Assembly (NCBI GenBank): GCA_905250025.1
Contig: CAJNOJ010000140.1
Location: forward strand, 186,001 to 250,000
Origin: Adineta ricciae
Taxonomy: Eukaryota; Rotifera; Eurotatoria; Adinetida; Adinetidae
DNA length: 64,000 nt
Direction of reading: 5' to 3'
Part shown: piece after piece, positions 2,550 through 56,126 of the stretch
Position numbering within the stretch: the stretch's first letter is position 1
How the letters are laid out: the number at the start of each line of letters is the position of its first letter
Notes under the pieces: model-generated
The model's database searches: none
What the model saw: only the letters and a program-made list of their open reading frames with translations
What the model was told of the DNA's origin: nothing
Made by a program: the position numbers and the translations under genes

Positions 2550-3337
2550 GATTGTGTTTTTGCTACAAAAAATTTTCATGAAGAAATAGATGTCGATGAA
2601 TAGAGAATGAAAACATACCGTCTGTGATGAAAATATAACTGATCTACTTCTAATTTATAGTTCGATATTTTCAATCCAAATACTATGTAACTAAATACAT
2701 TGATCTGCATTAATCAGTTAATACCTCGAAGTGATTGCTTCGATCTATATCGTCAAATCGATCATTTATTTTTCAATTTTTCAACTGTGTGATCACTAAA
2801 ATAAAATGACATCTTTCTTTCTTGTTGGTACTAGTTTTTTTTGCATATGCACATCTACGATTACAATTATCTTGCGCATATGTTTGTATTTGAGTGTCAA
2901 TGTTACGAAGTGCAATCATAAGCTCTAAGTTGTCTTTAGTATTTATGCATGTAATGGAAAACTACAGGTCTTTCGCACAAAACGAGCATTATTTGACATC
3001 GTCCAGCACGTTATCCGTATAAATATCAAAAGAAAGAAAATGGAAGAATGAGATTTATATATAAGCACAACGCTACGATTTTATATTGCTTTTATTCTGG
3101 ATACGCAACGGAGAAAAATCAAGAAGTACTGTTTAAATTGCCAACGTATACGCTTCTTTCCGGATGTTTCTTTCGACTCAATCAATAAAGCGCATCACGC
3201 AACCTTTTTCTTTTACAATGTGCTGGTCTTTATAGTGTGTAATATTTCCGATACGATCTCATCATCAATGACGCTTTTATTTCAAAACTGTTTGTTTCAA
3301 TGCTTTGATTTTTCGTGGTATATATAGTTAACCGACG
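2550..3337. other. Intergenic, divergent promoter region
   Basis: AT-rich spacer between divergently transcribed genes. TATA-like words occur near 3057 (tatataagc) and 3319. No coding frame was supported. Confidence 0.4.
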
Positions 3338-3987
3338 ATGAGCTCGCGAAAATTTTACTCGATCTCGTTTGTCATTATTATAAATGCATTGTTAATTACT
3401 TCTGGTTTCATCGCTACTACCAAGTATGTCGCAATACGAAATAGAAATCGTCAATATATGAATAGTACATGCTATGTGATTAATCGTACGTGTATAGAGC
3501 AACAATGCAAATATTGTATGTCGGCAAACGGTTGGAGAAGTAAATCTTGCGAAATTTATCGATGTTGGAATGAATATCTTACAATCTCATATCCGATTCG
3601 GAATGGAAGTGAAATCAAAAGTACTCTTACTCATAATCACGTTCGTGAGTGCAGTTGGAATATGGAAGTACGAGATCTGTCCTATACTGTCAATTTTCTC
3701 TATTGAAATACATTCGTCTACTTTAGATCGGTAGTAGTTACTCATGTTTCTATCAGCAACTACGCGTCAATTTAATTGAATGGCATCTACCAGCTGAACA
3801 AATTTATTTCATTTTACTTTTTATATCTTTCTTCCTCTTTGGTATTATACTCATATCATGTTTATTTTTCAAATGGAGACTCGTACGTAGAAAAACGAAA
3901 TCCAACTTTTCTCATTTTATCCAACACGATTCGGCTGTATTCGAACAAAATGACCAATTGAACTCTGGTCAAAGCTTAATGGATTGA
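3338..3987 (+). CDS. Two-TM protein with eight-Cys extracellular loop
   Basis: Two exons, 3338-3667 and 3727-3987, join in phase across a 59-bp intron (GTACGA..TTTAG) to give 196 aa. Residues 8-32 form a first hydrophobic helix. A loop of about 110 residues follows, with eight cysteines and NxS/T sites (for example NSTC, NRTC). A second helix (FILLFISFFLFGIILISCLF) precedes a short basic cytoplasmic tail. Size, two helices and an even-Cys loop recall the beta subunits of BK potassium channels, but I see no diagnostic motif, so that is only a topological analogy. The donor is not a strong consensus; however, it is the only one tried that keeps the frame into the second helix. A TATA-like word lies only about 12 bp before the ATG, so the true transcription start is unclear. 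Confidence 0.55.
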
Positions 3988-7292: not shown

Positions 7293-8681
7293 CTAGTAGA
7301 AGTGACCATGATAATATCGTTGAGGTGCTGCAAATTGTGGAGGTCTTCTCATCGACGGATATGGGTACGCAGGTTGATGTTGAGGAGGAACAACAAGTGC
7401 TGCATTTCCATATCGACCCATTCCTGCCATTTGTCTCATCATTATCATTCTTCGATTATCTTCATCACGAGATAAAAAGTAATTTACAACACCTCGTTGA
7501 ATCGCCTCGATTCGACGTGCTCCGAAATCCAAATCAAATCGACGTTTGTTTGTCAAATAAATCACACCCGACTGCTCATCTCTCGCCAAGTCTTTTATCG
7601 GAGAAAACTCATAGTGTGATAAGATTAACCTATAACAAACACACAAAATAATACTACAGTCTATCAAATACTTCTACAAAGCCGTCCTTTCGTACCATCT
7701 TCCGAAATGACTTCGACTGTTTCGACTTCCAGATCGTCGATGATAAACATTCACATCCACATAACCAACATTGCCACCATATCCAGCTATCGCACCAACT
7801 CGATCACTCCAGCTCTTCGCTAACATAGCATAATCTTGATGTATATTACTTGGATATGTCTCCCTGATTCGACCTAATAAAGCAAAGGCAAAATGCAAAT
7901 CATCTGATCCAACAATACAGAAATCCATGAGACCACCAATTGCACTAAAAGTACTTCGATGCATTGCCCAAGCCAGACCTGGATGAACATGTCCATATGG
8001 ATAATTTGCTTCAATCGCTTTACCATGACGAATGGCATACCCAACTGAATACTTTCTTTTTAACACTTCACGTTTACCACCAGCACCAGTCATGAAAGCA
8101 ACTTTGAACATTTGAACTATAGGATATCGATCAAGAGCAGCCATTGTTAACTGCGGCCAATCTAGACGCTATATACACAATAGAAGAAACAAAACAGTTG
8201 TCATCTGAAACTGTGGTGAGGATGTGTAGAAAAACACATCACGATGTCTCACTTCGAATTCAACATCTGCATCGATCCATGCGATTCGATCAATGTGAGG
8301 TGGTAGTTGTTGCACAACGATATTGATGAGATTTTCTTTCATCCATATGATGGATGGAGCTATGACTTGAAAATGTTGTGGATTATTTGGCTGTGTGACT
8401 TCGAATCGTTGTGGTGGCAAACCGTATCGTGTTGCTGATTCGAAGATACATTCGATAGTAAAGAGATTGACACCTGAACGTGCCATATGATATGCAAATT
8501 GTCGATATCGTTGGTAACGAGTTTGATATCGAACAGGATTGAACATCACTGTAATGATGGCCAAACGTGAAAACTGATTCCGACGCAGATACGTTGCAAT
8601 GTTACGTCGATACATAGCAAGCATTTCGTGTAAAAACAAACGGAGAGTAAAAGCGAATGACCATACTTTGATTATTTTCAT
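7293..8681 (-). CDS. Glycosyltransferase-like protein, copy 1
   Basis: Three exons on the minus strand, 8681-8253, 8168-7678 and 7629-7293, give 418 aa; the introns are 84 and 48 bp. A short hydrophobic N-terminus (VWSFAFTLRLFLHEML) precedes the core. The core has LAIITVMFNP near its start, a DxD-like AWIDADVEF, GLAWAMHRSTF and VGSDDLHFAFAL, which together look like a GT-A type glycosyltransferase found in bacteria and large viruses. The C-tail (from about residue 365) is Met/Pro/Arg/Tyr-rich low complexity. The acceptor is unknown. A second copy lies inverted at 54.8-56.1 kb; the shared part is nearly identical but both protein ends differ. Stop and start codons are clean, so the copy appears functional. 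Foreign origin is likely but not shown. Confidence 0.7.
7677..8595 (-). repeat. Inverted homologous tract, arm 1 (conversion tract)
   Basis: This arm pairs with 54824-55742 in inverted orientation. Read by eye it is identical for about 754 bp from the 5' edge, including the whole 84-bp first intron; then differences appear (two near the NIHQ/NINR codons, three near the end of exon 2, one in intron 2) and increase through exon 3. Upstream of 8595 the two genes are abruptly different. Confidence 0.85.
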
Positions 8682-10616
8682 TACCTTTTAAAGAACATGA
8701 AAAAAATTTTCGTCCTGTTTTCACTTGATGATGAGAATGACACGGTTGAGTAGAGCATGTGAACCTACCAAATGGAAGGCAGATAATAAGAAAATATGTG
8801 TTCTATGTAATTTCATTTGAATTATGTAATCACTCCATACAGGTCTCTAAAAAGAACGGACTGTACTATAAATTCCTACATTTGATTTACTCATCCAAAA
8901 CAAAATGCAAAAAGATTCTTCAATTCTTTTTATTTCATAGAATACAAATATTTTCTTTCTCTGCAATGCTACGTTAAGAACTGAAAAGTATCGAACCAAT
9001 AAATCCAATGGTTTCCCTGTTCTGAAACTGAACCATAATCAAGCGTGTCTATTTGTGAAATCAAGTCAATAACATTGAATGTTGCTAAACTGCCATTATT
9101 CGTAATCGTCTTTCAGAGAGGTTCGGTGCATTCGTGCAAATAATGGTTCCATTATTCGCAGACTAAGATTAACTCATGCCTAGTACTTCAATCTCCAAAA
9201 TTATAAACCACTATACGATCACGCAGATCAACACTGATTGTATCATTATTCTTGATCCACCTGTATAGCTTACAAAAAAGAAACAGATAGACTAGATCAA
9301 AATAGCCATTCTAATATTTTTCAAAAGATGTCATGCAATCACTTGACTATGAAAATCCCCAGAAAATGGAAATTTCCCACGCTGGAATATTCCTTCTTTG
9401 AGATGGTTTTATCCGACTACGCACATGTAACTTATATATACGACACGATTTTTTCTTTCTTTCCTTTGTATGTATTACCTCTTCTCTTTCTCTTGATGGT
9501 ATGCTTTGGAAGAAAACTGTCACTTGTTTATATAGAACCGAAGTATTCTTTTCGCGATTAGTAAATCTATCTCTCAATGGAAGCACGCTGTCGTCACAAC
9601 AATACAACAGAGAAGTGACGTTTCTGTCTTCAAATAGATGCAATTCAAGTGGAGTTGTCTGAAAAAAATGATGAAACATGCCCCCACTTTGGAGACAAAA
9701 CACAATTAAAATGGAAGAACTGAGAGTTCGCTTGTCAGTTGTAATTTATGAAGAGCAAAAAATATGGTGTCCAACGCCATCGAACAAAAAATGTATTGTT
9801 TATGATTATGAATTAACAAAAAAATAAGTTGTCGGAGAGTCTATTGGATTTTTACTATGAAATCATGGAAAAATTGTTGTCGCTTTCGTCGGGTTCGGTA
9901 GAAAGTGCCGAAAAGTAAATCATTAAGTAGACAAACGTCCAAAAAAAAGCAGAAGAAAACTTTTATATAGGGTAATCTTCTTTTTCTTTTTCCGATGTTT
10001 GCCTGTTCGACAATTCTTTTTCGGTATTTTCCGGCAAACGCCTTTCATCATGTGATCTGGTTGACTTTGTTCGATGATTCATTGGGAAAAAACATAAAAA
10101 GAAAACCAAATACGTATGGTGTTCCGTTAGGCACTTCATTATACAAATAGTAGTATGTTGCGCCACGTTGCATCATGTAGATATTAGGATGCGAAGGAAA
10201 AGTTGTCCTCTTTTGAAGTAGGCATGACTACTCTATGTATGTGTACGTGATTCTCTTGTTCTCTTCCTTCTTTTTCTCCATTCTGTAGATTGTAATCACG
10301 TGTCTTTTTTCGTAATTTCATAAGAATTGCTTGGTTTTTACTGTTCGTTTTTTTTAAAGTAACCACATTAAACCATTGAGTGTGAGTGAATAATCCAACG
10401 AGGCCTGATCTCCGAAATTCAGATATTTTCCTTCTTTTAACAGTTGGACTCAATGTTGATTTTGCTTGTGTAAAAACCGAAAAAGTTACGCGAGACTGAA
10501 TAAACCACCATGAAAAAATACTTTTATTTTCATTAAATGCGTTAAACAATACTAGACTATCACTACAATTGAGAATATAGTTTTAGATTTGACACAGCGT
10601 CGTTAAAATTATTTTC
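8682..10616. other. Intergenic, no gene seen
   Basis: About 1.9 kb of AT-rich spacer upstream of two divergent genes. Open frames of 60-120 codons occur on both strands but are low-complexity, overlap each other and show no family motif. Nothing supported. Confidence 0.45.
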
Positions 10617-39004: not shown

Positions 39005-39352
39005 TTATGATCGTGGTACTGTCCAAATATTTTCCAATTGTTGTGCTTTCTCCCAAAAATCTATGCATTTACCGTTGCCACGACCGATAAAACCGCCCGA
39101 TGGAGCACATATTTGATGACATTCTCCATCAAAAAGAGGATTAAATCGATCGCAACAGCTACTTGTAGCTAGATAAGTTGTTTTACCACGATATATGTAG
39201 CTATCAATACTGATATATGGACTAAGACGAGGCGTAGAGTTGAATCCATCGATCATTTTACGAACACATTTTGGTATTTCAGTTGTTTTAGCTGTTGATG
39301 TTGAAAACATCACACTGACAATGCAAACAGTAACAAGAATGACAGTTTTCAT
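39005..39352 (-). CDS. Small secreted Cys-rich protein, DUF6970-like
   Basis: A single exon encodes 115 aa. The ATG at 39352 was chosen because it starts a signal peptide (MKTVILVTVCIVSVMFSTSTA); the frame is open further upstream but with Ile-rich sequence and no benefit. The mature part has six Cys, including CCDRFNPLFDGECHQICAP and GGFIGRGNGKC. This pattern (Y.GK..Y...S.CCD.FN.L.D..C..IC.P.GG..G.G.GKC.DF) matches a family of small bacterial lipoprotein-like proteins that I recall as DUF6970, common in Bacteroidota. The bacterial form has a lipobox, which is absent here. Function unknown. Horizontal origin is likely but untested. Confidence 0.65.
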   Translation of the reverse strand: MKTVILVTVCIVSVMFSTSTAKTTEIPKCVRKMIDGFNSTPRLSPYISIDSYIYRGKTTYLATSSCCDRFNPLFDGECHQICAPSGGFIGRGNGKCIDFWEKAQQLENIWTVPRS

Positions 39353-41362
39353 ATTTGTTTTTTTTACAATGATGATGATGATCTGAAAATTTAAATCTTG
39401 AGGACAAAACACTACCTTTTCACATTCGCAATCGATATCAAATTTACGATCAAAAAGAATGCAGTAAAACTGTAGTCGTTATTTTATTTTACGTCGTCGT
39501 TATCTTTTTTTTTCGTTTATAACAGCCGTATGCATTTGACTCTCATGATGAATCAAAACGACACAGTGTGAACAAACTCACAATTGCAATCCGAAAGCTT
39601 ATTTACGTATGCAGATTTCGAAGTAATCGAGTAAAAAAAAAGTACTAATTGATTCTTACAGGTCGCAAATGAAGATATTCTTGTTCTTGGTATACTTTAT
39701 GTTTATTTCGATGAATACAAGCATGAAAATAATCTGCTATAACTACAGGCAAAATGCATGTGAAATGTTACATGTTGCGGCTTTAAGTTGAATCCAATCA
39801 ATTTTGGAATTGGTATAGCATTGACAGATGGTTGTACTGATCGAAATAATCTTTTACGTCCATCATTATTGCAGATCACTTGCAATGCTATTACAATGGC
39901 ATTAAGATATTCAAACAAAGCAACGGATGTTCCGTAACTATTATAAAAAGCCAGAGAACTGTTTTCGAATAAAAACATATCATTGAATCTTCTACAATAA
40001 CAGAAACTGATCATGGAACAAATTTAGGTTTTACTCATTAGAATGGATATAAAATTGTCATTCGATCAAATACATGTGTGAATAACTATACATTTACCGA
40101 TGACCATTCATTGACAACCGAGGTAATGGAACGCCCATGTATAAAGCGAGCAGTGGCCATGTTTATGCAAGAGAAAAAGATCATTGGGACATCGTTTGTA
40201 GTAATTCTGTTTAAGATTGTGCGATCTCAAACAGAAGCATGCAAAGAAATTCATTCTCGAAACGTCAGAGACTCCAAGTTACACAAATGAATGTTTACTA
40301 TTTTATTTGTTGAAAATAAAAGTTAACAGGATTTTATTTCCGTTCTTGTAAGTATCCTACTTGAAAGAATAGTATACATTCCTACAGCATATCTATTTTC
40401 CAAGCATTACTAATTTTGAAAACTATTTTATCATAAAAAAAACTTCATGCAGTTTACCGTCTTCGACTTCACATCTGAAGTGGTTTTGACTAATATACAT
40501 TTAATTCTTGACGAATTACAGATTTTGTGTTGAATATATTAAGCAATGTATAGTATCTTGTAATGTATTGAAAAAGTTGATCATATATTTTGATATGATT
40601 CATGTTAACTGCGTTGAAACACAGCAAGCACAAAAACGTCATTTTTTGAATCATTATACAAATGCACTGAAGTCAAGTGATAGCGGAAGAACTGTCTTAT
40701 ACCCAGTGTGTTGATTTTTTGTAAAATTTTATCCAATTATATGCTTCACCTATGACGAATAAGTGCATTTTTATCCAATAAAACATGTAGAAAAACGAGA
40801 TATGATCAACAACATAAATCTTTCGCTTAAATCAAACTTTCGTGTCTTCACCGAAGTGGTAAAGATAACAACAGTAGTCACATTGTTGTGAAAATAAAAT
40901 AACAATGATATCGGCGAAAGATGTTTGAAAACAGCTTATTGAGTCAAAATCAACGAAGATGATTGAATATTGAATCAATTTGGTGATTTAACACATTTGT
41001 AATGTCAAAAGCCACTTTACGTACGAATATATGTGTATGCGTCACTAACGTATAATACGATACTTTATGACTTTTTCTATAACATGAAATCTTTGTTATC
41101 ACCATAACTCATACTTCCTTTTTTTCCCTTTCAGGACAATTTTCTCTCACAGGATAAATTTCGTTAACCTTATTTCAGTATAATCAAAGCAATCCTGGCG
41201 AAATATGTGATAGTACTGTTTATTTAATAATGACAAACGTGCCCTTTCAGGAAATTTTAGATTATTCTGTGAAAAAAGTCATAATCCACTTTCGTTTGAC
41301 TATAGCTTGGAAAATTCGCAGAAAAGCATACAATGGTATGTTGATATGATGCAAACACGCGC
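39353..41362. other. Intergenic; one weak coding-like stretch
   Basis: Two kilobases of AT-rich spacer. On the minus strand 39990-39703 is open and rather protein-like (SLAFYNSYGTSVALFEYL, PIPKLIGFNLKPQ), with an acceptor-like tattgtag just upstream, so it might be a terminal exon of an unseen gene or a relic. The rest shows nothing. Confidence 0.3.
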
Positions 41363-41374
41363 ATATATATATAC
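41363..41374 (+). promoter_or_regulatory. TATA box of defensin-like gene 1
   Basis: A TATATATATATA run lies about 92 bp before the ATG of the first defensin-like gene, leaving room for a 5' UTR of about 60 bp. The second defensin-like gene also has an upstream TATA. Core promoter use is inferred from position only. Confidence 0.35.
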
Positions 41375-41465
41375 ACTTCTTTTCTCATCGTCACACAACC
41401 CAATTCTACTCTCTCCTGTTATTTACAAGAACTTCTACACATAAACAATACTAAATTCGGTTACA

Positions 41466-41877
41466 ATGCATCTCAAATTCATAATTTTAATTGCCATAAT
41501 GATCCCATTTCTAATATTGGAAACCCAAGCTTGGCAATTGAGTTTTATAACACCGTCAAGTAGTAAGATCTTAGATAATTGTCATTCGTCTAAAATCGGT
41601 AAGTTTCTTCTCGTTGTAGAGATATCAAAGAACAAGAAAAAATGGAATTATTCATATATGTCTTATCGCAATGGTGAAAAGAAAAGGACGAGGCATGCAA
41701 ATATCAAATAACGTGATATAGAAATAGATTTAAACAAAGAATACTCATCGATTTTGGTGTAAAACAAAAAATCGAGAGGCGCAAACGAACTGTGTATTGC
41801 AATGCAGCTTTAGTGGCCATCGCAGCGGACATTGTCAACCGCACAAAGATCATTTTCGGTGTGTTTGTTCTGGCTGA
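41466..41877 (+). CDS. Defensin-like (CS-alpha-beta) secreted peptide 1
   Basis: Two exons, 41466-41598 and 41777-41877, join in phase 1 to 77 aa. Exon 1 encodes a signal peptide (MHLKFIILIAIMIPFLILE) and the first Cys (DNC). Exon 2 supplies CVLQC, GHC and CVCSG. The mature part has six Cys with spacing C-x10-C-x3-C-x9-C-x8-C-x1-C, the pattern of invertebrate CS-alpha-beta defensins, including the Gly-x-Cys before the last pair. It should be an extracellular antimicrobial peptide with three disulfides. The acceptor (aatcgag) lacks a good pyrimidine tract, but it is the only tested site that keeps the frame. The intron is 178 bp, longer than most here. Without splicing the frame ends in an unrelated basic tail, which I reject. 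Confidence 0.65.
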
Positions 41878-43557
41878 TTAGTTTCAAAATCTTATTAATC
41901 TGCATCTTCTCAAAGCAATCTCAGATAATAAATAACCAAGAGTTGACGTTATGAAGCTTAACCCCGTGTGTGTATAGTGTAAATTGTTTGATTTCAATGA
42001 TTGGCATCCAGTAAGTCCTTCGAACAGAGGGAAGCATATGACTGTGATCAAATAAAGTTGTGTGACTTTCCTGTTACATCGTAAGATGTAATAATAAAAG
42101 AAAACTTTTCGTACAAGAATCATGTTTTCTTGTTGTTCCATTCTTATGATTTATTTTGTACCCTTTCTTCTATATGTGGACAGGAATCTGTCTTTATTTT
42201 GTTACTATGAATCAAATAAATCATTACTATACAAATGTCTTACTGATTGTGAAATAAGCTTCGATCGAGATGAAAACTGAAACCGTATCCTTGTTTTCGT
42301 CAAAGTTTCGCTTTGATTAAGTTTACAAGAAACGAAATGAAGCGATTAAATTATTACACCAATGAACACTCTCTGTACTCATATCGATGACTGATGTAAT
42401 TTCTACTGACCGTTGTGGATCTGTCGCATAACGGCAGTGTTCAGTTGCCATAAGAAGCAAACTTCATGAGTTTTAAACAACAAAAGTAATAAATGAAACA
42501 ACGAAAATATTTTCTCAGAAAATTTGCATTATGATATGCTCTTAAAAAGATAACAAATTCAAATCTGATTCGTCAGAACATACTTTTATCTCAAACTAAT
42601 AAAATGATTCAATGTGATTCAACGAAAGATGGTATGAATGAATACGTCTAAAAGATAATATTCATTCTACATATCGATACAAGTGTTCGTTATATCAGCA
42701 TGGATTTTTACTTCGATACTCCTCGGCACCAGATTCAGTTACTGTTGCACGCTTTCATCAGAATTTCTGCAAAGCTCATATGAAGTAGATAAGATGATAT
42801 TTTATATTTGGTTAATACGCTTCATTTGATATTCTGATGAAAGGATTCTAAAATAGATGGTAAGAAGTGTTCATAATGTGTTTTGTCATATAAACACACA
42901 GAACCAAAAAATAAAATAGTTTGATTGTCATGAATTTACTGTTTTACCAAACAGTTACCGTTGTCATAATAATCAATTCATTAGGATGTCCTAGATGTTC
43001 TTACAAGGAAATAATCTTACTTTGAAAAACAAAGCTAATCGATATATTGGGCAGTATACTCATATACGAGAAAGAGCAGAAAATCAAAGTGTTTTTAATA
43101 TTCCTTACTATCGAAACGCTAGATGCAAGTTAATCTTCAACTGTGAAAAAGGTCGTCAAGAATGAGTATTTCTCAGAATTGTCATCATTGAAAAGAAACT
43201 AAATGTGTTTTTGTTGTTGACATTCTACTCGTCAGCCTCGTTTTGTGAAACTGAGTGTATACGAATCGATATGATTGTATCATTATACAGCTTTTGACAT
43301 ACCAGTAATCTGCTCAATGAGAAAAATCGCGTACAAGGGTGGGTTATGCGAGATTCATATTTGTGTCAGTGCAGTTAGACGTGTATTTAAAGTTGGCTAC
43401 TATGACTACAACGAGTTGATCTTCACAAATGAGTCACACACGTCTTGACAATACAGTTCATGAATCATTATTCGATGCTTTTCAAGTATCAGTTCGGTCG
43501 TAACATTTAGGTGCAAATTCTTATAAAACAGATATTTTTGTCCTTGATTAAGATAGA
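41878..43557. other. Intergenic, no gene seen
   Basis: About 1.7 kb of AT-rich spacer before the GPCR gene. No coding, RNA or repeat signal was recognised. Confidence 0.45.
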
Positions 43558-44707
43558 ATGAATCATACAACGACGATTCTTCGTGCCAGTGATAGTACTA
43601 GTGATATTCTGACGACGATGCCTTACATAGTTAACATTTTCATTGGTACATTTTTGGTCGTGATGGGAAACATTGGTTGTATTGGTAATGTGATTGTATA
43701 TCAATCATCAATATTTTACAATCAAGCTTATGCAAAATATCTGTTGGCAGAAACAATCTCCGATTTCTTTGTAATCAACCTTGTACTTCTCACACGAGTG
43801 ATCGAAAAAGGTTACGGAATTCCAGTATATACTACTCGCTACGATTTTTTATGCAGAATTCGACAGACTGGTTCGTATTATTTTGTTCTGACATCATTTT
43901 CATACTATACACTAGCAACACTCGATCGAATTTTATCCGCACAACGTTCCAATTGTAAGTAAATACTACTTTTTATATTCGAAAACAACGGTGAACTGCA
44001 TAATTGAGATATGTGCACACATAATTACTTGGCCACGTTTTCTATAACTATAAATTAAATATCACCCTTAAAACGTGCGACTCACTCTGTTCATTTTAGG
44101 GCTTCGTAAATGGAGCAATCGTATTTCTCTGGCTTATAAGTTAATCGTTGCATGCGCCATCATATGGCTCCTACTCACTGGTCACCGACTTTTCATATAT
44201 GCATTGGTCCATGGCAAATGTAATCCTCAACTTGCAGTTTATGATCAGATCAACAATTATATAGAAGCGATTGTAATGGAACTTGGCCCACTAGTGATCG
44301 TATTTACACTTGCATATCTTTTGAAAAGATCTCTTCGACACATTATTCAGCGGCCAGCTGCTAGCATTACTATTGGAAAACACTCTCGAGTGCGTCAAAT
44401 CGATTCACAAATTACATTAATGTTACTGCTTCAATCCATAGTAGCAATCATATCTTTTCTCCCATATGGAATAGAAACACTTTACGATCATATAACTGAA
44501 ACATGGTATAAAACGTCTTTACAACTTGCCATCGAAAAAATCATCGGTCAAATCACGCATACATTATTATATACATTTTCTGCTTCTGGTTTTCACATAT
44601 CAATTATCTCTAGTCATGGGTTTCGTCGTGAAATTAAACGTATCTTATGCAGGAAAAAGATACATCCTTTGCCAACCATACCGACTTTTACAGCTAGAAT
44701 ACAATAA
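43558..44707 (+). CDS. Rhodopsin-like GPCR (bdelloid chemoreceptor/peptide-receptor type)
   Basis: Two exons, 43558-43954 and 44100-44707, join through a split Trp codon to 334 aa. The exon-1 donor is GTAAGT and the acceptor is TTTTAG; the intron is 145 bp. There are seven hydrophobic segments, starting with IVNIFIGTFLVVMGNIGCIG (TM1, GN motif). The end of TM3 reads ATLDRIL (residues 120-126), a variant of DRY common in bdelloid FMRFamide-receptor-like proteins. TM3 and ECL2 cysteines are present (FLCRIRQ, GKCNP). The N-terminus has an NHT glycosylation site. It should signal through G proteins at the plasma membrane; the ligand is unknown. It lies between the two defensin-like genes; whether that matters is unknown. 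Confidence 0.8.
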
Positions 44708-45520
44708 AAGTTCAGAATATTAATTATTTTGATTCTAAAGAAAATATATCTTCTCATTAGTCTTATTCATTCCGAAAAAAAATAAACAAACTTATGCAGC
44801 TTAGCTTAGGAAATAGTTGATTGTCTCTAGATAAAGTAGTATCTTGCAAATAAGCGCAACTATCTTTATATGCTTTAAGATATTCATCAACTGCATCTGA
44901 TTTAGTCAAGAACAAGCAATCTATGAGAAAATCGGAGCGACGCAATGAAAATGATGAGTATGCGTGCGCCCTACAGTATTTTCTCATTCATATTCACGCT
45001 CAAGAAAGTCCTTCACTACATATCCTTCATAAAATGGAAACAACAGCTAATTATAGACACGATAATTTAATCTTTCATGCATCATTGTTAACCATATTGA
45101 TTTTTCAGAGGTTTTTCCAATGTATATAAATTAGATCATTCACGAGAACAAGGTATGTGCTATTGCACTATTTATGATTTAGACCGCAGGAGAGAACGTA
45201 CATAGCAGCCATAATCTGGAGTTTTATGGGCCATTCGTCGATGAATGAACAAGTTCAATCAAATTAACGACTCGAATTGTTCTACTTCCACATGAAAAGC
45301 ACATACTTTGCACAAATATTTCGTGATAATACTAAATGACAAAAACATTGCCGCTTATCCGATATGACTGATATTTAGACTATGTTGTGTCAATATTACT
45401 TCCCTTCTATGTTGGAAACTTTGATGAGAGGAGCAGCATCTGTTTATTTCTATATCTGCATACGACGACTACAAACATCATTCGTGTAATACGAAAACAG
45501 AAAAAAACGATGTGTGCCTT
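44708..45520. other. Intergenic; one weak coding-like stretch
   Basis: The minus strand 44960-44763 is open and partly protein-like (SDAVDEYLKAYKDSCAYLQD), but nothing upstream could be joined to it. It may be a relic exon. The rest shows no signal. Confidence 0.25.
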
Positions 45521-45836
45521 AGGTAAAGTTAGCAGTACATTTGAGTATTTATTGTCTGGGTTCGCCTGAGAACTTGTGTTGAGTCTAAAAATGATCGCGC
45601 TGAACGCTAAATTGAATTATCTATTAAATGATGTCGTTTTCGGCATGGACTATCGAGAAAAAAATCAGTCGCACCCACACTCAGATCCTCGCCTGCGATG
45701 ATATCCTCGTGACTTACATCATTGGATAGAGAATTCGATTCTGAATATAGCACAGCCAATGTGAGAGGCTCAGGACAGGTTCTTCAGCGAATTCGGACAA
45801 TAAATACTCGAACGCAGTGTTAACTTCACTTAGGTC
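45521..45836. repeat. Foldback of decayed coding sequence
   Basis: Two arms of about 120 bp, 45521-45640 (+) and 45836-45715 (-), are imperfect inverted copies, about 70-75% identical by eye. Both arms read as the same protein piece on opposite strands: FEYLLSGFA on the left, then a stop and LVLSL, and FEYLLSEFAEE on the right, then LSL. After a frame change the right arm continues as an acidic coding-like stretch (NDVSHEDIIAGEDLSVGATD). The arms differ more in the centre. It is either a foldback element or an inverted duplication of a lost exon. Confidence 0.5.
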
Positions 45837-47002
45837 GATATGTGATGTATTTCAATATTTTACGTCTATTCTGAGTCATAGACATTTTCATTTCGACGAA
45901 ATGTGCGATTATTAGGATACCACTATTACGGCTTGTTCCTACGATTATATGATATATCTACAGTAATTGTTGAAAAGACAACGTTGACGAGATCAATGAT
46001 GTCCAGAAACTCAACACAAGTAAATAATAATTACAGTAAACATATGGAGCATCGTGGTTGTTATTGATCTGCTACATGAGAATTATTCAGATATCGTGTG
46101 TTTTCTCTTATTTCTGTCAATTAAGGGCCAGCTGAAATGATTTCGGATTTCTAAAAAAATATTTTCGCATCTAGCTAAACTGATTTGCCGAAAACATCAA
46201 CTACAAAACTTCATAAACCACCCAAGTTAATGATTTCGACCCTCGGACTCATGGGATTCCAGCAGAAACCTGAATGAGAAGACAACGGCTCCTTTCAATT
46301 CTCGGAGAGAACCGGATGAAGTCATGTGCTGGATCCGTTCAGAGAATTCCTACTGTATCAAGTCCGTACTTCTCTACATGTACGTTAGCAACTGACACAA
46401 GTTAAAGTTACGATAAAGACCGCTGAGTTCTTTCGCGCGATTCTCGGTTACATTGATCAGAGCTGGAAATTGAATGGTATAGTATTCAGAATGACAATAG
46501 TTTTACCAATAACTTACTTGCTAATCAATCTTATCATCCGTGAATACGAATGAATGTTGTGACCGCTTGCATGACCTTGCAATATTCATAAATGTGAACA
46601 GAGTTAACTGTATTGCTTCTTGCTGATGTCTGTCTGTCTTACTAAACAGTTCTATAATGCTCACAGGCAATGGTGTTATGTAGAAATATAAAAAATAGAA
46701 TATCTCGAAATGCTTATGCAGTAAAATGAGAGAAACTCACGTATTGAAACCATAACGAACGTTTGTCCTTTCTTATCGAATTAATGAATAAATCTGCTTG
46801 TAGTAGGTAGGTTTTTTCCTTTTTCGAATAGCTGAGAAATAATATCAACAATATGATAAGAAAATCACGTGAATAATCATGACGACAGAATATTTAATTT
46901 AAACTGACTTTGCGTGGATGAAACTTTGAGAGTACGGTAGTTTACTTCCTATCCATCCTCTGTGGGAAAGATCAGAAAATTGGCAAGATGCTTCTCCAAC
47001 AG
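45837..47002. other. Intergenic; G+C-richer island near 46.2-46.4 kb
   Basis: Mostly AT-rich spacer. The stretch 46230-46400 is richer in G+C and repeats ccgga/ggatcc-type words, as do 57.1-57.2 and 60.35-60.55 kb. No coding frame was supported. Confidence 0.3.
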
Positions 47003-47010
47003 TATATAAG
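47003..47010 (+). promoter_or_regulatory. TATA box of defensin-like gene 2
   Basis: TATATAAG, a near-perfect TATA box, lies about 149 bp before the ATG of the second defensin-like gene. A start site about 30 bp downstream (near 47035) would leave a 5' UTR of about 115 bp. Inferred from sequence and position. Confidence 0.45.
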
Positions 47011-47151
47011 AGCCGTAGATGCACTCTGAAAAAAAACATTCTATTTGCTACTCAAAACTACAAGAAACCTTCGATATTATCGAAAACAAGTAAGAAATTA
47101 CTCGAATGACGGATGAAAAAGCTTATTGAAACGAGATTATCTTAAGTGTTT

Positions 47152-47466
47152 ATGAAAAATTCTAAGCAATTTATTTTGGTATGTTTAATTGGTACTCTAT
47201 TTATGGCAGCGCAAGCTATGAACCAACTCAATGCACACGCAGATCACAGTAAGAATGGAGAGTTTTAATAAACGCAAACCAGGATGATGTATGACTGTAT
47301 AGAAATGAACATGGGAAATGACATACAATTGGACCTTCCGATTAAGTACTGTAAAAGTATGAGTCATCTGGAGGATAGCAAATGCAGTCACTGGTGTGTA
47401 TGGCACAAGCATAGGTTCGGCAGATGTGAAGAATATAAAAATAAGATCATATGTGTTTGTGCTTAA
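47152..47466 (+). CDS. Defensin-like (CS-alpha-beta) secreted peptide 2
   Basis: Two exons, 47152-47248 and 47303-47466, join in phase 1 across a 54-bp intron (GTAAGA..TATAG) to 86 aa. Exon 1 encodes a signal peptide (FILVCLIGTLFMAAQA) and the start of a propeptide. The mature part has YCKSMSH, KCSHWC, FGRC and ICVCA with six Cys spaced C-x10-C-x3-C-x9-C-x8-C-x1-C, exactly as in the peptide at 41.5 kb, although the residues between differ almost everywhere. Here all six Cys are in exon 2, whereas in gene 1 the first Cys is in exon 1. It should be an extracellular antimicrobial peptide with three disulfides. A strong TATA box lies upstream, as in inducible genes. Confidence 0.75.
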
Positions 47467-48439: not shown

Positions 48440-51400
48440 ATGATCATCGGAGAAGTTAAAGAAATATTTGAGGTTTATTCGCTGATTTTCTTTCGGTTGG
48501 CATTGACGACATGCCAGCTGAACATGTACAACAACCGAGAAATCGTTGGTGGCAATGCACTGGCATACGATTGTCTGGATTATCATGGTCAACATCGAAC
48601 AAAGCTAGCTAATCAAGATTTATATGATATGACTATTGAGCTAATCTCGTTCTGTATCCGTCCGGTGCGTCCAGATGATGAGCCAATGGACACGTTCGTT
48701 CATCCACTTGCTCGTCGTCTGTCATTTGAACGAGTGAGTGACATGGGTGTCACCGTTGAACAACTGTTGTCATGGTCAATTCCAACGGTGATAGTTGAGC
48801 GTTATCAGCGCTATCTGAGCAGTCACAAGATGGCATCATTGAACGAGCAATTCTACAACTGCACTTCTGCACGGTTCGGTATTCGCTGTCAATATTCGTT
48901 TGGATCTCGTTTCATGCAAGGAATGTCTTTTGATGATTTGATCGATGACACATTTAACAGCAAACAATCGTATGCCACGTCATGGGATGATATGACGACG
49001 TTAGCAGCGCCTATCCCATGCTATGTCCTGATCAAATGTCATCGCAATGGGATCGAGTGGTGTCTTGATTGGCGTGAGATATGTGATGGAGTGATAGATT
49101 GTTTTGACGAAGGCACCGATGAAGAACACTGTTTTGTACTGGAAATTAATAAATGCAAGGCGGACGAATATCGATGCCACAATGGCATGTGCATTGCAGA
49201 AGATCTATGGCAAGATGGCGAAGACGGAAGCGAAGTGGATTGTCTTGATCGGTCTGACGAGGGTCAAGATGAAGCTTCTTTGACGATGTGCTATCGGGAC
49301 GTGTCATTCCGATGTGAACAGCAGGCATGTCGACCAGATGAACTTCGATTCTCATGCGGCGATGGTGAGTGTGTTGGGAGATTTGCGCCTTGTCATAGTG
49401 GTCGACATCAGTTGTTGATTGAATCGTTGATGCAAGAAGGCGACCTGAATAAAGAGTGTTGGATGACAATGGTTTGTTTGACTAAGCTTGTTAAGCAACT
49501 GAATGGAACACCATGTGATGTATGGTTGTTAGACGATTCCATCAGTGCACATCTCGCACAATGTCCTCACCTGTTTCAGTTTCCAACAACTGCAGTCCAC
49601 TCAAATCACGTTCTCTTTTTTTACGCCAATGTTGAGACTCGCAAAAATCTGACGGATGATTTTATGCCTGACTACGTGTGTTACAATGAAGAACTCTGCG
49701 AGTTTCATTCCGTGCATTGGCTTTCTGATGTTAATATGACTTGCTTGAGCAAATGGGATATTTGGATCGAATGGGATAATACGGTTAAAGATCCATGGAG
49801 TCAATTAGTATGGTTGATTGAGCGAGAATTTCGTTCTTGTATGGTGTCCACAAATGATGTTTTTCGCAATCAGATGCTCGATTCAAATGATTCTACCTTG
49901 TATCAGTGTTCGAACTCATCAAAAGTCATTTCTTCGCACCGTATTAAAGATGCCTTGTACGATTGTATTGAGAATGACGACGAAAACCGTGCAAACAGTT
50001 GTTCGTTCAACGATCGACATCGAGCAAGATGCGAGCATGAAAAAGAGTGTTGGTCGCCGTTAATAAAACAATCCGTCTGCAGGATCAGTGATGAGCAAAG
50101 TGAAGATATTCTACCATTCGCAAGCTTTTGTGATGGCATTTCACAGTACTATTATCATAGCACGAACAGAGAAAAGCGAGACGATGAAGATGGTTGTGAT
50201 ATGAATGCACTGTGTGACAATATGTATTCACGTTGTGATGGCTTCTGGGCATGCCCAGATGGTCGCGATGAATGGAACTGTAGTAATCACTCGCTATGTC
50301 CAGTCTCAAGTCATGCTTGCATATCTCCTTATAACTACACAGTGTCGTGTTTGTCTGCTAATCGTGTCAATGATGGAGTCGCTGACTGTCTGGGAGCTAC
50401 TGATGAACAAGAGAAATGTCGCTTTACTTTCCGTTTGCATCACGATCTTCGTCCTTTGGGTTGTCTAGGAAGTGACGAATGCTTACGATCGTCCCAGTTT
50501 TGTGACAACAGAGTTGATTGTTCGCAGCATCCAGATGATGAACAGTTTTGCCAAGATCGACCGTTCACATGCAATCAGACTGTATCACGCGAACGAAATC
50601 AACTCGAGCACATTCTTTGTAGTCTAAACGAAGAGAATGAACGTCGGATCAAATTCTTTTCGGTGATTACATCGACACTTTACCCTGCGTCAACCGAATT
50701 GTCCGATCGTCATGATCACGCGCAGTCCCGGCGAGTCCAAAAGAATAACGAGTCGGAAGATGCAACGAAACTGATGGTGACACGAACGTTCACACGAGAA
50801 GATAAACGTTGGTCACACTATTGCAACCGTGGCATTATGGTCGAAAAACAGTCGAAGAATCTTACTTCCTTCGACTGCTTGTGTTCAGCAAGTTATTACG
50901 GTGATCGATGCCAGTATCAAAGTCAGCGAGTTAGTTTATCATTGCAGCTAACTTCAACAAGCCGATATGAAATCTATGCTGTCATCATCCTGCTAGTTGA
51001 CGACCAACGCAATGAAATCACAGCATTCAGTCAATTCAAGTACATTGCAAAAGATAGTTGTGCAATGAAATGGCATGGAGTCCTTCTGTATCCGACGAGA
51101 CCAATGAATAGTTCCACAAATTACAGTGTTCGAATCGATGTAATTGAGAAGAACTCGATGGATTACGTTGGCCATTGGTATTATTCGATTCCATTTGCGT
51201 TTTTACCTGTAAACCAGCTGAGTGTTGCATTGAACTTATCATCAAGTGCTATTGTCGGAAAAGTCGAGTGTAGCATGACATGTTTAGATGGAAAACAAGA
51301 ATGTATGGTATATGTCAATGTGAGAAACAAGTCATTTTGTCGATGGAAACCATCTGAAACAACTGACGATGAATGTTCGAGTGGGTCTGTGTTTATTGGC

Positions 51401-53212
51401 TGGACACAAAATCGGCGACCGATCTGCGTGTGTCCATTCTTTCGGCATGGACCAACTTGTGCGTTGATGTCACCGCAATGTTCGCCGAATCTTTGTCAAA
51501 ATCAAGGCCAATGTGTTGAACACGATGAGAGCTTGTTTGATAGAAAGTACACATGTGTTTGCACTAGCAAGTATTACGGTCTGAACTGTGAATACGAGAA
51601 ATGGCAACTAGAGGTGTCGTTCGAAGGCATTGATGTGTCGTCGTATGTCATTGGACATTTCTACACTATCTCGAATGATTCGCAACCGCAAAAAACAATC
51701 CTTCTTCGAAAACTGACACTGTTCCAACATGTCGTGGCATTTCATATTTCGATTCCATTTCACTTAGCTTTCATTCAGATCAACGAACGTGACTTTTATC
51801 TCGTTTATCTTCAACATTCACCGTCGATGTATGCATTCTCTCAGCTCAGTGACAAACAGCGATGTCATTCGATGAGTAATTATGTCAATTCCACAGTATT
51901 GAATCTGCATCGATATGAACGAATAGCTCATTTTCATCGCGTCTGTTTGCAAAATTGGCATGTAGTGTGTTTCGTTGATGAAATGTATTTGTGTTTATGT
52001 ACGAATGATCATCATGCGAATTGTTTGCCGTTCGAGCAGCAACTGTACTCTTCTGCAGATCGCTTTCGATGTTCGGCCAATGATCAGTATTGTTCGAACG
52101 GAGGCGAGTGTTATCAAGATCATGCTCATTGTCCATCGACGAAGATCTGCTTATGCGCAAGCTGCTTTTTTGGTCAACAGTGTCAATTGTATGCGAAAGG
52201 GCTTGGCTCGACATTAGACGAAATCTTGGGCTATGAATTCGTTGCAAAGCGAAGTCTAACCTCTCAGTCCGTGTCAATTAAGCTGAGTGCTGGAATAACC
52301 ATGGTGATTTTTGTTGTAGGAATTATCAATGTCATCTTAGCATTGATGACATTTTCGCAGCCGAAAATCCGTGAAGTCGGCTGTGGACTGTATTTATTAG
52401 CATCATCGGTTACTTCATTGTCGACAATGATATTCTTCACACTGAAGTTTTGGCTGCTGCATTTCTCTTATCAGAATGTGTCCAATGCTGGAATCATTCT
52501 GACGATCAATTGTCGATTTGTGGAAGTGATGTTAAAGTTGTCTTTATTCATCGACAACTGGCTGAATGCATGTATTGCCATGGAGAAAACTAATTCAGTC
52601 ATTCAAGGTTTGCAGTTCAACAAGAGAAGTAGTCGACAGCTAGCAAGACGGGTAACTCCATTTGTGTTTGTTGCCAACGTTGCAATGCTCGTTCCACAGA
52701 TGCTCAATCTTCATGTGTTCGAAGATAAGATGGAAGGACGAAGTTGGTGTGTGATTCATTACAAGCCATGGTTGAAAAGATACATCGTTGGTCTGATGTT
52801 CTTCAATTATTTTGGCCCATTCGTTGTTCAGATTGGATCAATAATCCTGATTATTATAGGCACAGCTTATCAGAAACTGTTAATACAATCGAACGAGAAA
52901 CGTATTTGGAGCCATCTTAGATGGAAGATTGTCAAATACAGACGACTTATGATTAGTCAAATGATTATAACATTGTTGACATTGCCTCACTTGATCATTT
53001 CGCTAAAATTAGAATGCAGACGATCGTCTGATTTGCTTTGGTTTTTTCTGGCTGGTTATTTCGTATCATTCCTTCCGGCAGCAAGTATTGTTATCATATT
53101 TGTGACCCCATCTCCATTGTATCGAAAGCAACTGAAGCAAGGTGTGAAGCGAATTTGGCAACGAGCACAGTATCAGTGGGAGACGTTCCGAACAAAAGCA
53201 ATGATGAACTGA
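48440..53212 (+). CDS. Giant LDLa/EGF/7TM receptor
   Basis: One uninterrupted exon encodes about 1,591 aa from the ATG at 48440; an upstream exon may exist because no clear signal peptide is seen, only a hydrophobic YSLIFFRLALT. LDL-receptor class A-like modules lie at about 194-232 (CDGVIDCFDEGTDEEHC), 239-274, 588-616 and 674-704. EGF-like modules lie at about 794-828 (CLCSASYYGDRC), 1014-1053 (CVCTSKYYGLNC) and 1210-1250 (CLCASCFFGQQC). Seven membrane helices follow from about 1281 to 1570, with a short basic tail. There is no visible GPS cleavage motif, so it is not a standard adhesion GPCR. It should be a surface receptor sensing proteins or lipoprotein-like ligands. The region is richer in G+C than its surroundings. 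Two related copies, one short and one dead, lie in the same window. Confidence 0.8.
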   Translation: MIIGEVKEIFEVYSLIFFRLALTTCQLNMYNNREIVGGNALAYDCLDYHGQHRTKLANQDLYDMTIELISFCIRPVRPDDEPMDTFVHPLARRLSFERVSDMGVTVEQLLSWSIPTVIVERYQRYLSSHKMASLNEQFYNCTSARFGIRCQYSFGSRFMQGMSFDDLIDDTFNSKQSYATSWDDMTTLAAPIPCYVLIKCHRNGIEWCLDWREICDGVIDCFDEGTDEEHCFVLEINKCKADEYRCHNGMCIAEDLWQDGEDGSEVDCLDRSDEGQDEASLTMCYRDVSFRCEQQACRPDELRFSCGDGECVGRFAPCHSGRHQLLIESLMQEGDLNKECWMTMVCLTKLVKQLNGTPCDVWLLDDSISAHLAQCPHLFQFPTTAVHSNHVLFFYANVETRKNLTDDFMPDYVCYNEELCEFHSVHWLSDVNMTCLSKWDIWIEWDNTVKDPWSQLVWLIEREFRSCMVSTNDVFRNQMLDSNDSTLYQCSNSSKVISSHRIKDALYDCIENDDENRANSCSFNDRHRARCEHEKECWSPLIKQSVCRISDEQSEDILPFASFCDGISQYYYHSTNREKRDDEDGCDMNALCDNMYSRCDGFWACPDGRDEWNCSNHSLCPVSSHACISPYNYTVSCLSANRVNDGVADCLGATDEQEKCRFTFRLHHDLRPLGCLGSDECLRSSQFCDNRVDCSQHPDDEQFCQDRPFTCNQTVSRERNQLEHILCSLNEENERRIKFFSVITSTLYPASTELSDRHDHAQSRRVQKNNESEDATKLMVTRTFTREDKRWSHYCNRGIMVEKQSKNLTSFDCLCSASYYGDRCQYQSQRVSLSLQLTSTSRYEIYAVIILLVDDQRNEITAFSQFKYIAKDSCAMKWHGVLLYPTRPMNSSTNYSVRIDVIEKNSMDYVGHWYYSIPFAFLPVNQLSVALNLSSSAIVGKVECSMTCLDGKQECMVYVNVRNKSFCRWKPSETTDDECSSGSVFIGWTQNRRPICVCPFFRHGPTCALMSPQCSPNLCQNQGQCVEHDESLFDRKYTCVCTSKYYGLNCEYEKWQLEVSFEGIDVSSYVIGHFYTISNDSQPQKTILLRKLTLFQHVVAFHISIPFHLAFIQINERDFYLVYLQHSPSMYAFSQLSDKQRCHSMSNYVNSTVLNLHRYERIAHFHRVCLQNWHVVCFVDEMYLCLCTNDHHANCLPFEQQLYSSADRFRCSANDQYCSNGGECYQDHAHCPSTKICLCASCFFGQQCQLYAKGLGSTLDEILGYEFVAKRSLTSQSVSIKLSAGITMVIFVVGIINVILALMTFSQPKIREVGCGLYLLASSVTSLSTMIFFTLKFWLLHFSYQNVSNAGIILTINCRFVEVMLKLSLFIDNWLNACIAMEKTNSVIQGLQFNKRSSRQLARRVTPFVFVANVAMLVPQMLNLHVFEDKMEGRSWCVIHYKPWLKRYIVGLMFFNYFGPFVVQIGSIILIIIGTAYQKLLIQSNEKRIWSHLRWKIVKYRRLMISQMIITLLTLPHLIISLKLECRRSSDLLWFFLAGYFVSFLPAASIVIIFVTPSPLYRKQLKQGVKRIWQRAQYQWETFRTKAMMN

Positions 53213-54803
53213 TGAATGTGCGTTTTTGTGTATGTGTGTTTGTGAGCCGCTTTATGCATTGAGTTTTGCGTTAGTGAAAGATAGCTTGTATTAATATTGT
53301 TGAAGCTAACGCTTACCAGATGAAACCTAACAACTTCTGCTAGCAGACAGTCAGAGTGTATTTGACATAAAGAATGAAATAAGGTATGTGGTCGATGTTT
53401 GCATTAATTTTTTCTAATAAACGACATACACTAACGTTTGATTTCTTCGGAAGAACTGTAAGTCTTTGTTCATTATACCATATACACGATAGTGTCTTTC
53501 GAAATTCGTACAAGTTTCACACAGATTCTACTGGAATTTGTTAATTACACTGTGACCACCATCAATTATAGCGTACTATATGGAATGTGTTAATTAATCG
53601 CTAACTAGGAGGGTGTATAGTCGATAAAAATTAACTGAAACAATCCAAATCAGGTAATAAGTGTTTGGAAATTGATTGATCATTTATTAGAATAATACAT
53701 TTAGTTAAGGTCACATAGAATCACAGATCACATGCTATTATGATAAAACTGTTGAAATCAATGAAATTGATATTCCGGGTTAATATCATTTCTTAGTTTA
53801 TTGATTCTTCTATTGCGTCTAATACACGGCAAAATATAATCACCATCTTGCATGGCTAGTGAATGAGATTTAATGAATTCACAAAGCTATCTTGTATAGT
53901 AGATCAGAGACTACACTAGAGCGTCCGACATTCGGTTCTAGGCTTCGAAAAAGTGTACATTTGGTGTACTATATAAACAACGAGCAAATGATTTACCTTG
54001 ATGAACTGCAAAGCTGGAATGGCTGATAGAATGGCATATGCTTTGTTCAGTACTAATATATATATATATATATAGCATAAAGAATGAAAATAATCGATAG
54101 AATATGTTATAGAAGTAACTAGAAATTGATACCTTGGGAAATCTTGCACCATGACTTGTGAAGTGAGACACAATTCTGTATGTGAGCTCACAATTTGTTT
54201 TACATACGTTAATCCGGAAAATGATACTATTTGTGATTGTTGTTTATTTAAACTTACAGACAAAAGAAAAAACAAAGCAAACTGTGACAATATTGTCACA
54301 AATTAAAATTTATACTAACTGCTTGACATGCAGAGATTACTCTAAGAAATAGGTACTCTTAGGCTTATAGTAAAAAGCATTCAGTACTGTTTCATACGGC
54401 AATTGAAAAACAATACATATCACTTCCTCATTGGAAAATAATCATGAAGATGTATAATCATCTTTTGCTTTCTAATTCACATGACTTTGTCGATATCGAC
54501 ACGAGTAATATCGAATGTTAATTGATCATACGCGTGTGCATGTGATGCTCACGCGACTATACATAAAGGTTCGAGTTATATCAGAACGTGCTACAAAGAC
54601 TTAAATCTTTCAATAGTATATTAATCGTAACATGTGAATTATTTCAATGCTGATAATCACATGTTTCAGTCAACCATAAAATCAATATTGCATTAAATAC
54701 ACAAAGAATCACAAAGGTTGTGCATTATTCAGAGGGAAAAGAGAAGGAAACAGCGTGTTTTTTACTTTTTATTGCATTTGCTTTTTTCAAACAAGATAGT
54801 GCA
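53213..54803. other. Intergenic with (TA)9 microsatellite
   Basis: Receptor 3' UTR followed by AT-rich spacer. A (TA)9 run lies at 54057-54074. Just before 54804 the glycosyltransferase frame is open back to about 54720 and encodes a hydrophobic stretch (ACFLLFIAFAFF) without ATG, so a leader exon may be missing or its start codon lost. Confidence 0.45.
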
Positions 54804-56126
54804 ATGTATCGCAATAGAAACGAAACGTATCTGCGTCGGAATCAGTTTTCACGTTTGGCCATCATTACAGTGATGTTCAATCCTGTTCGATATCAAACTC
54901 GTTACCAACGATATCGACAATTTGCATATCATATGGCACGTTCAGGTGTCAATCTCTTTACTATCGAATGTATCTTCGAATCAGCAACACGATACGGTTT
55001 GCCACCACAACGATTCGAAGTCACACAGCCAAATAATCCACAACATTTTCAAGTCATAGCTCCATCCATCATATGGATGAAAGAAAATCTCATCAATATC
55101 GTTGTGCAACAACTACCACCTCACATTGATCGAATCGCATGGATCGATGCAGATGTTGAATTCGAAGTGAGACATCGTGATGTGTTTTTCTACACATCCT
55201 CACCACAGTTTCAGATGACAACTGTTTTGTTTCTTCTATTGTGTATATAGCGTCTAGATTGGCCGCAGTTAACAATGGCTGCTCTTGATCGATATCCTAT
55301 AGTTCAAATGTTCAAAGTTGCTTTCATGACTGGTGCTGGTGGTAAACGTGAAGTGTTAAAAAGAAAGTATTCAGTTGGGTATGCCATTCGTCATGGTAAA
55401 GCGATTGAAGCAAATTATCCATATGGACATGTTCATCCAGGTCTGGCTTGGGCAATGCATCGAAGTACTTTTAGTGCAATTGGTGGTCTCATGGATTTCT
55501 GTATTGTTGGATCAGATGATTTGCATTTTGCCTTTGCTTTATTAGGTCGAATCAGGGAGACATATCCAAGTAATATAAATCGAGATTATGCTATGTTAGC
55601 GAAGAGCTGGAGTGATCGAGTTGGTGCGATAGCTGGATATGGTGGCAATGTTGGTTATGTGGATGTGAATGTTTATCATCGACGGTCTGGAAGTCGAAAC
55701 AGTCGAAGTTATTTCGGAAGATGGTACGAAAGGACTGCTTTGTAGAAGTATTTGATAGACTGTAGTATTATTTTGTGTGTTTGCTATAGGTTAATCTTAT
55801 CACACTATGGGTTTTCTCCAGCAAAAGACTTGGCGAGAGACGAGCAGTCGGGTGTGATTTATTTGACAAACAAACGTCGATTTGATTTGGATTTGGGAGC
55901 ACGTCGAATCGAAGCGATTCAACGAGGTGTTGTAAATTACTTTTTATCCCATGATGAAGATAATCAAAGAATAATGATGATGAGACAAATGGCACGAATG
56001 GGTCGATATGGTCATGGCGCAGTTGCTACTCCTCGTCGACCCCGATCCGCTTCTCCAAATGCGATGATGAGGATGCCTCGACAGTTTGTTGCTCCTCGTC
56101 GCGCCTATCTTCAGGGCTTTTATTAA
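54804..56126 (+). CDS. Glycosyltransferase-like protein, copy 2
   Basis: Three exons, 54804-55166, 55251-55741 and 55790-56126, give 396 aa; the introns (84 and 48 bp) have the same lengths as in copy 1 at 7.3-8.7 kb, and the first is identical. Core motifs are the same: LAIITVMFNP, AWIDADVEF, GLAWAMHRSTF and VGSDDLHFAFAL. The N-terminus before YLRRNQF and the C-tail after VVNYFLS differ from copy 1 (the tail here is Arg/Met/Ala-rich). The first ATG gives no membrane anchor, unlike copy 1, although an in-frame hydrophobic stretch precedes it. The protein could thus be cytosolic, or the true start lies in an unseen exon. Predicted role: transfer of a sugar from a nucleotide-sugar donor. Confidence 0.7.
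54824..55742 (+). repeat. Inverted homologous tract, arm 2 (conversion tract)
   Basis: This arm pairs with 8595-7677. No difference was found by eye from 54824 to 55577, which covers the exon 1 core, intron 1 and most of exon 2. The first difference is at 55578, and they become denser towards and through exon 3. Confidence 0.85.

Follow-up and report, generated by a model that had tools for sequence, protein, structure and literature searches.

Plectasin and other "ancient invertebrate-type" GXGCP defensins, the arthropod defensins (PF01097, XTCD group), the plant defensins and the nematode ABF/ASABF peptides all share the cysteine-stabilized alpha-beta (CS-alpha-beta) fold. The GXGCP motif is a G-aromatic-G-C-P start, whereas XTCD peptides are marked by XTCD at Cys1, a long N-loop and a double Ala in the helix (PMC12284004, in part). 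Here we examine two small genes, termed peptide 1 and peptide 2, in a stretch of 64,000 nucleotides (the window; bases 186001-250000 of contig CAJNOJ010000140.1, hereafter C140) from the 130 Mb genome of the bdelloid rotifer Adineta ricciae. A second contig, C143, is collinear with the window from ~33.5 to 52.2 kb, with 85-92% identity in the main pieces, and thus carries a homologous copy of both genes. We consider it likely that both genes belong to a multi-locus CS-alpha-beta (invertebrate-defensin-type) family of A. ricciae, and that peptide 2 is a working gene and peptide 1 has no strong splice path common to both of its copies.

Both window peptides carry the array C-x10-C-x3-C-x9-C-x8-C-x-C. 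The identity of spacing claimed in an earlier note on this DNA is exact, with all six cysteines of each peptide lying within one exon frame, and the string is found twice in the six frames of the window and in 0 of 150 first-order shuffles. Agreement by chance between two strings that are not genes could be argued from the fact that the earlier Cys1 of peptide 1 depended on selected splice sites, and from the proneness of short cysteine strings to selection. However, Cys1 at x10 is encoded within the peptide 1 mature exon at 41758 in both copies, which also leaves unsupported the former claim that the two introns differ in position relative to Cys1. The near absence of shared sequence described earlier holds insofar as the loops differ nearly everywhere (6/31 non-Cys residues are identical, one being the Gly of GxC), but the loops are more similar than shuffled loops (p = 0.0014), and a search with peptide 2 reaches the C143 copy of peptide 1 (E 0.0086) as well as a locus on contig C171 (E 1.5e-8). 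The 13-locus family and the constraint on peptide 2, both described below, also speak against chance, which we regard as extremely improbable. Peptides 1 and 2 are distant paralogs rather than chance look-alikes.

Protein searches of the genome, started from both peptides and then from their matches, gathered 13 loci on nine contigs (two each on C140, C143, C602 and C280, and one each on C171, C349, C170, C705 and C54). The same six-Cys spacing lies inside one exon in all 13 (37-residue cores checked), and only the six cysteines and the Gly of GxC are invariant in the alignment. Weighing against the family as we read it, this uniformity is partly a product of the similarity search, which favors ungapped relatives. 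A scan by spacing, proposed earlier for bdelloid genomes, was run on 14 A. ricciae stretches (137,427 bases) with a strict, a core and a relaxed form of the pattern, and returned 9 strings, every one a family member. A match on C113 (E 1.0, four stops) was dropped, and its stretch holds no pattern.

Gene structure is likewise shared among the members in which it can be resolved. Six loci (peptide 2 and its C143 counterpart, C349, the first copy on C602 and both on C280) have a first exon of exactly 97 nt that ends in phase 1 at a GTAAGA donor, with all six cysteines in exon 2. The automated model of C171 differs, and the deposited protein P0003, read by eye, agrees with a first exon of 32 codons and one further base. 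Phase-1 models that place the intron ahead of Cys1 are available for C170 (88 nt) and for C705 and C54 (94 nt each), other single-intron models being possible for each. The signal part of P0006, a deposited protein closely related to C54 and sharing its spacing, ends as in the C54 phase-1 model. The second C602 copy (C602:28001-38000), ~2.3 kb from the first, has a mature exon and no signal exon visible nearby.

Searches of deposited proteins returned six distinct proteins, five labeled A. ricciae plus P0005, a 52-aa ENA product of a 706-base contig, which is similar to the signal exon of C349; P0001 carries the sequence of C349. No clear relatives outside A. ricciae emerged from the protein searches, which required shared 5-residue words, so that this absence is weak evidence. 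Similarity between C349 and C602 stops ~1 kb or less on either side of the gene. The ratio of non-synonymous to synonymous substitution (dN/dS) in exon 2 is 0.43 for C349 and the first C602 copy, 0.88 for C349 and the second, and 0.55 for the C602 pair, while all 7 changes between the C280 copies are non-synonymous. By Fisher test, the four close pairs do not differ from 1. In an unrooted tree of the 13 cores, peptide 2 groups with C171 (0.891), and peptide 1 adjoins them with a support of 0.227.

Several lines of evidence point to a CS-alpha-beta (defensin/scorpion-toxin) fold. In a search of the PDB with the family profile, the first seven rows are plectasins (E 2.7e-4 to 2.4e-3), and PF24552 ("Defensin-like") matches 12/13 members at E <= 1 (best 7.7e-5), although both window peptides fall below every curated Pfam defensin cut-off. 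The CS-alpha-beta pattern read into the cysteines by the earlier note is borne out by AlphaFold2, which predicts a helix and two strands for peptide 2 (predicted local distance difference test score, pLDDT, ~90 or more from residue 21 on) and for peptide 1 (mean pLDDT 87). CS-alpha-beta proteins make up 48/50 of the Foldseek matches listed. Compared with a reference array (PMC5116183, in part), the CxxxC and CxC pairs of the cysteine-stabilized helix are present in 13/13 sequences, as are Cys1 and the GxC at Cys4 that represent the third pair with its gamma-core; the joining of the helix to a two-stranded sheet is seen in the AlphaFold2 prediction only.

Among described groups, the plectasins and GXGCP defensins share with this family six cysteines, a 10-residue Cys1-Cys2 loop, GxC and the top profile matches, and two members (C170 and C705) have a plectasin-like GCNG start. 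Plectasin differs in its Cys3-Cys4 and Cys4-Cys5 gaps, which are 10 and 6 rather than 9 and 8, and the window peptides lack the GXGC start; the whole GXGCP motif is found in 0/13 sequences, the nearest being SFGC in C170 and HGCNGP in C705 (motif as given in PMC12284004, in part). Arthropod defensins have the same CxxxC...GxC...CxC array, and the family's weak profile and fold matches include insect defensins. However, the window peptides have neither the XTCD start nor the double Ala nor a PF01097 match at E <= 1, and the XTCD traits occur in 0/13 sequences. Plant defensins and nematode ABF/ASABF peptides resemble the family in fold, with profile matches at E 0.004-0.13, but have eight cysteines instead of six (PMC5116183, in part).

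The plectasin match hints at a fungal origin by transfer, which we considered. Introns of fungal defensin genes are mostly 3′, whereas those of animal defensin genes are biased toward the 5′ side (PMC4165938, in part), and the introns of this family lie 5′ of the mature part. Judged from the gene models, this placement is animal-like, and the 5′ phase-1 intron favors the animal type.

The genome also holds other genes of this kind. Searching the genome with PF24552 yielded 8 places, all short of the cut-off: 4 belong to the family, three are small Cys-rich genes on C458, C182 and C352 whose cysteines are spaced differently, and one, on C84, was not defensin-like on inspection. The C458 gene (C458:52150-52800 and 50150-54150, minus strand) encodes, in a single open frame, an 80-aa precursor whose defensin domain is clearly of the arthropod type (PF01097, 50.2 bits; cut-off 20.4). 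Its VTCD start and its double Ala are those of the XTCD group, its best PDB match is an insect-type defensin variant (4e-12), and its local GC of 33.6% resembles that of the window. The genes at C182:126800-127450 and C352:83850-84400 are small and have eight cysteines in a CxxxC...GxC...CxC-like array, with weak Pfam defensin or toxin-fold matches below cut-off; the C352 gene has RVRR immediately before its Cys-rich part.

Peptide 2 has the following structure:

47003..47010, + strand: TATA-like box upstream of peptide 2, TATATAAG; also in the C143 copy at C143:138457
47090..47146, + strand: probable 5′ intron directly before the peptide 2 ATG, GTAAGA...TTAAG; its removal fits the deposited N-termini of P0002 and P0004
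47152..47248, + strand: peptide 2 signal exon, 97 nt, as in the C143 copy
47249..47302, + strand: peptide 2 phase-1 intron, 54 nt, GTAAGA...TATAG, preceding Cys1
47303..47466, + strand: peptide 2 mature exon with six Cys and stop, from its open frame, dN/dS and AlphaFold2 prediction

Between peptide 2 and its C143 counterpart, dN/dS amounts to 0.14 for the two exons together (p 1.4e-5) and to 0.08 in the mature exon, whereas the intron differs at 10/54 sites. This is the pattern of a functional gene, and by this comparison peptide 2 is a convincing one, under purifying selection. The earlier suggestion that gene finders may miss such genes holds in part. The deposited model of window peptide 2 (P0004) is mis-spliced, leaving the family sequence after Cys1 and losing five cysteines, and no deposited protein for peptide 1 was returned by the searches whose alignments included it, but the C143 counterpart of peptide 2 (P0002) is correctly modeled. 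The proposal of a diversified CS-alpha-beta family in a bdelloid is upheld by the 13 loci with fixed spacing, the profile matches, the predicted folds and the purifying selection on peptide 2.

The features of peptide 1 are less regular:

41364..41373, + strand: TATA-like run upstream of peptide 1
41466..41562, + strand: peptide 1 signal exon up to the family-type GTAAGA donor, 97 nt; donor in the C140 and C143 copies; the earlier reading ran to 41598
41599..41776, + strand: intron of peptide 1 in the earlier note, rejected as a general model; donor GT on C140, TT on C143
41758..41877, + strand: candidate peptide 1 mature exon, six-Cys part from Cys1 to stop; open in C140 and C143

The signal peptides and upstream TATA boxes announced for both genes were recovered as signal-type N-termini and as TATA-like boxes beginning at 41364 and 47003. 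The previous splice model of peptide 1 did not survive, since its donor at 41599 is present in one copy only. Instead, a GTAAGA donor lies 97 nt after the ATG in both copies, matching the six peptide-2-type loci. Joining this donor to the shared acceptor at 41776 yields five cysteines, and the family-like ATATAG acceptor (41721) fails to enter the mature frame. Allowing GT or GC donors and AG acceptors, we counted 14 single-intron models on C140 and 21 on C143, among which no strong splice joins the signal and mature exons in both copies; the common models that keep six cysteines need the weak pair GTAGAG 41616 and AAAG 41739 (seven Cys in total) or GC donors. A retained-intron reading (81-aa open frame) was also rejected: apart from the C140 and C143 copies themselves, its search yielded a single match, which has a stop (E 5.9), so that no family backs it.

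This irregular gene could nonetheless be active and under diversifying selection, its scaffold kept while other residues change between the chromosome copies. The exons differ at 29/220 sites between C140 and C143, compared with 9/180 in the stretch 41563-41742 on the intron side of the gene (p 0.006), and the exon changes comprise 24.7 non-synonymous and 4.3 synonymous ones, with a dN/dS of 4.0 in the signal exon (p 0.18). Furthermore, the frame and all six cysteines are retained in both copies, whereas simulated random change kept six cysteines without a stop in 8.6% of trials. However, the overall dN/dS of 1.6 is not different from 1 (p 0.46), exon divergence is the same as that of the flanks (143/1057), and there is the lack of a good common splice. 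Nor is the slow stretch unique: in the collinear stretch, with open reading frames of >= 120 aa masked, 18/408 overlapping 180-nt windows are equally slow, clustering at 33.8-34.1 kb (14 windows) and at 42.8 kb (4 windows). On balance we doubt that peptide 1 is such a gene, while allowing the idea some weight. A bolder version, in which the cysteine scaffold is fixed, almost all other residues turn over, and peptide 1 copies diverging under positive selection give one asexual individual different peptides in place of sexual reshuffling, seems to us improbable.

The stretch 41563-41742 is also slow relative to the flanks (p 0.0008). No Rfam match at E <= 1 was found in 41300-42100, and no paralog was found for the open frame that covers the stretch.

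The peptide 1 exon is real, yet its gene is decaying, oddly spliced or fast-evolving. Most likely, the ancestral splice frame of peptide 1 was already lost when the chromosome copies separated, and the gene has drifted since, or it is spliced in an unusual way. The window may pair peptide 2, which appears functional, with a peptide 1 of uncertain gene structure that is decaying or changing very fast. The fast evolution proposed for the family is visible between paralogs, but peptide 2 is constrained and peptide 1 is indistinguishable from neutral decay.

By analogy with known members of the fold, an antimicrobial function may be inferred for the family. The precursor would be secreted via its signal peptide, and a short pro-part may be cleaved in some members (EKR in C170 and DVR in C54 lie shortly before Cys1). 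Oxidation would then form three disulfides (C1-C4, C2-C5 and C3-C6, as in insect defensins) around a helix-sheet core, and the mature peptide would bind components of the envelopes of bacteria or fungi that the animal encounters while feeding or during infection. For the plectasin-like members C170 and C705, the likeliest specific target would be lipid II, the cell-wall precursor targeted by plectasin. Lipid II binders include plectasin, actifensin and some others, and in plectasin F2 and H18 are among the residues linked to this binding (PMC12284004, in part). SFGC is kept in C170 and a His precedes Cys3 in C54. At Cys1 the window peptides read KYC or FWC, and their Cys3 is preceded by Trp or Gln, so that lipid II as their target is only a guess.

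Scorpion toxins and some plant relatives of the fold act as channel ligands, signals or enzyme inhibitors. Peptides of this family might similarly have a defensin fold without a microbe-directed role, serving as ion-channel ligands, signaling peptides or enzyme inhibitors. The fold matches include scorpion toxins and brazzein, and net charge (K+R-D-E), which ranges from +2 to +11 in 14 cores, is only moderately basic (+2 to +5) in the window cores and their C143 copies. Plectasin itself is reported to block potassium channels (PMC4303811, in part). However, the top sequence-profile matches are antimicrobial defensins, and the A. ricciae genome holds a separate arthropod-type defensin as well; we consider a role away from microbes unlikely.

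Other features of the window were also recorded. On the minus strand at 39005-39478, ~2 kb from peptide 1, lies a gene for a small secreted-looking Cys-containing protein with a DUF6970 match (PF22311, E 4e-29). Between both peptides (43552-44707, plus strand) is a two-exon seven-transmembrane receptor gene whose second part matches the Srw chemoreceptor family PF10324 over the cut-off (E 1.1e-5). DNA repeats between the peptide 1 and 2 genes consist of two weak direct repeats and one inverted pair, none over coding exons. Inverted near-copies of a multi-exon gene lie ~46 kb apart at 7293-8687 (minus strand) and 54657-56126 (plus strand) and are 98.4% identical over 1188 bases without gaps; two open reading frames tested from the first of them had no Pfam match. 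A 122-aa secreted-looking Cys-containing open frame at 3332-3706 (plus strand) likewise had none.

The defensin-like family appears to be new for a little-studied phylum, while its fold and kind are already known. In our PMC searches we came across no CS-alpha-beta peptide described from rotifers, and an earlier description is possible. Rotifera are reported to lack big defensins, a different family (PMC7203481, in part), and a lophotrochozoan peptide library sought rotifer entries (PMC10414684, in part). An A. ricciae RNA-seq study emphasizes horizontally acquired genes, and metazoan genes are not closely explored in it (PMC11258130, in part). The family would extend CS-alpha-beta peptides to Rotifera, beside flatworms, which are reported to lack them (PMC10414684, in part). 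Bdelloids persist without evident sex despite fungal and bacterial enemies. A classical animal peptide-effector family at 13 loci, together with an arthropod-type defensin and two eight-Cys relatives, provides concrete candidates that are testable in existing RNA-seq data.

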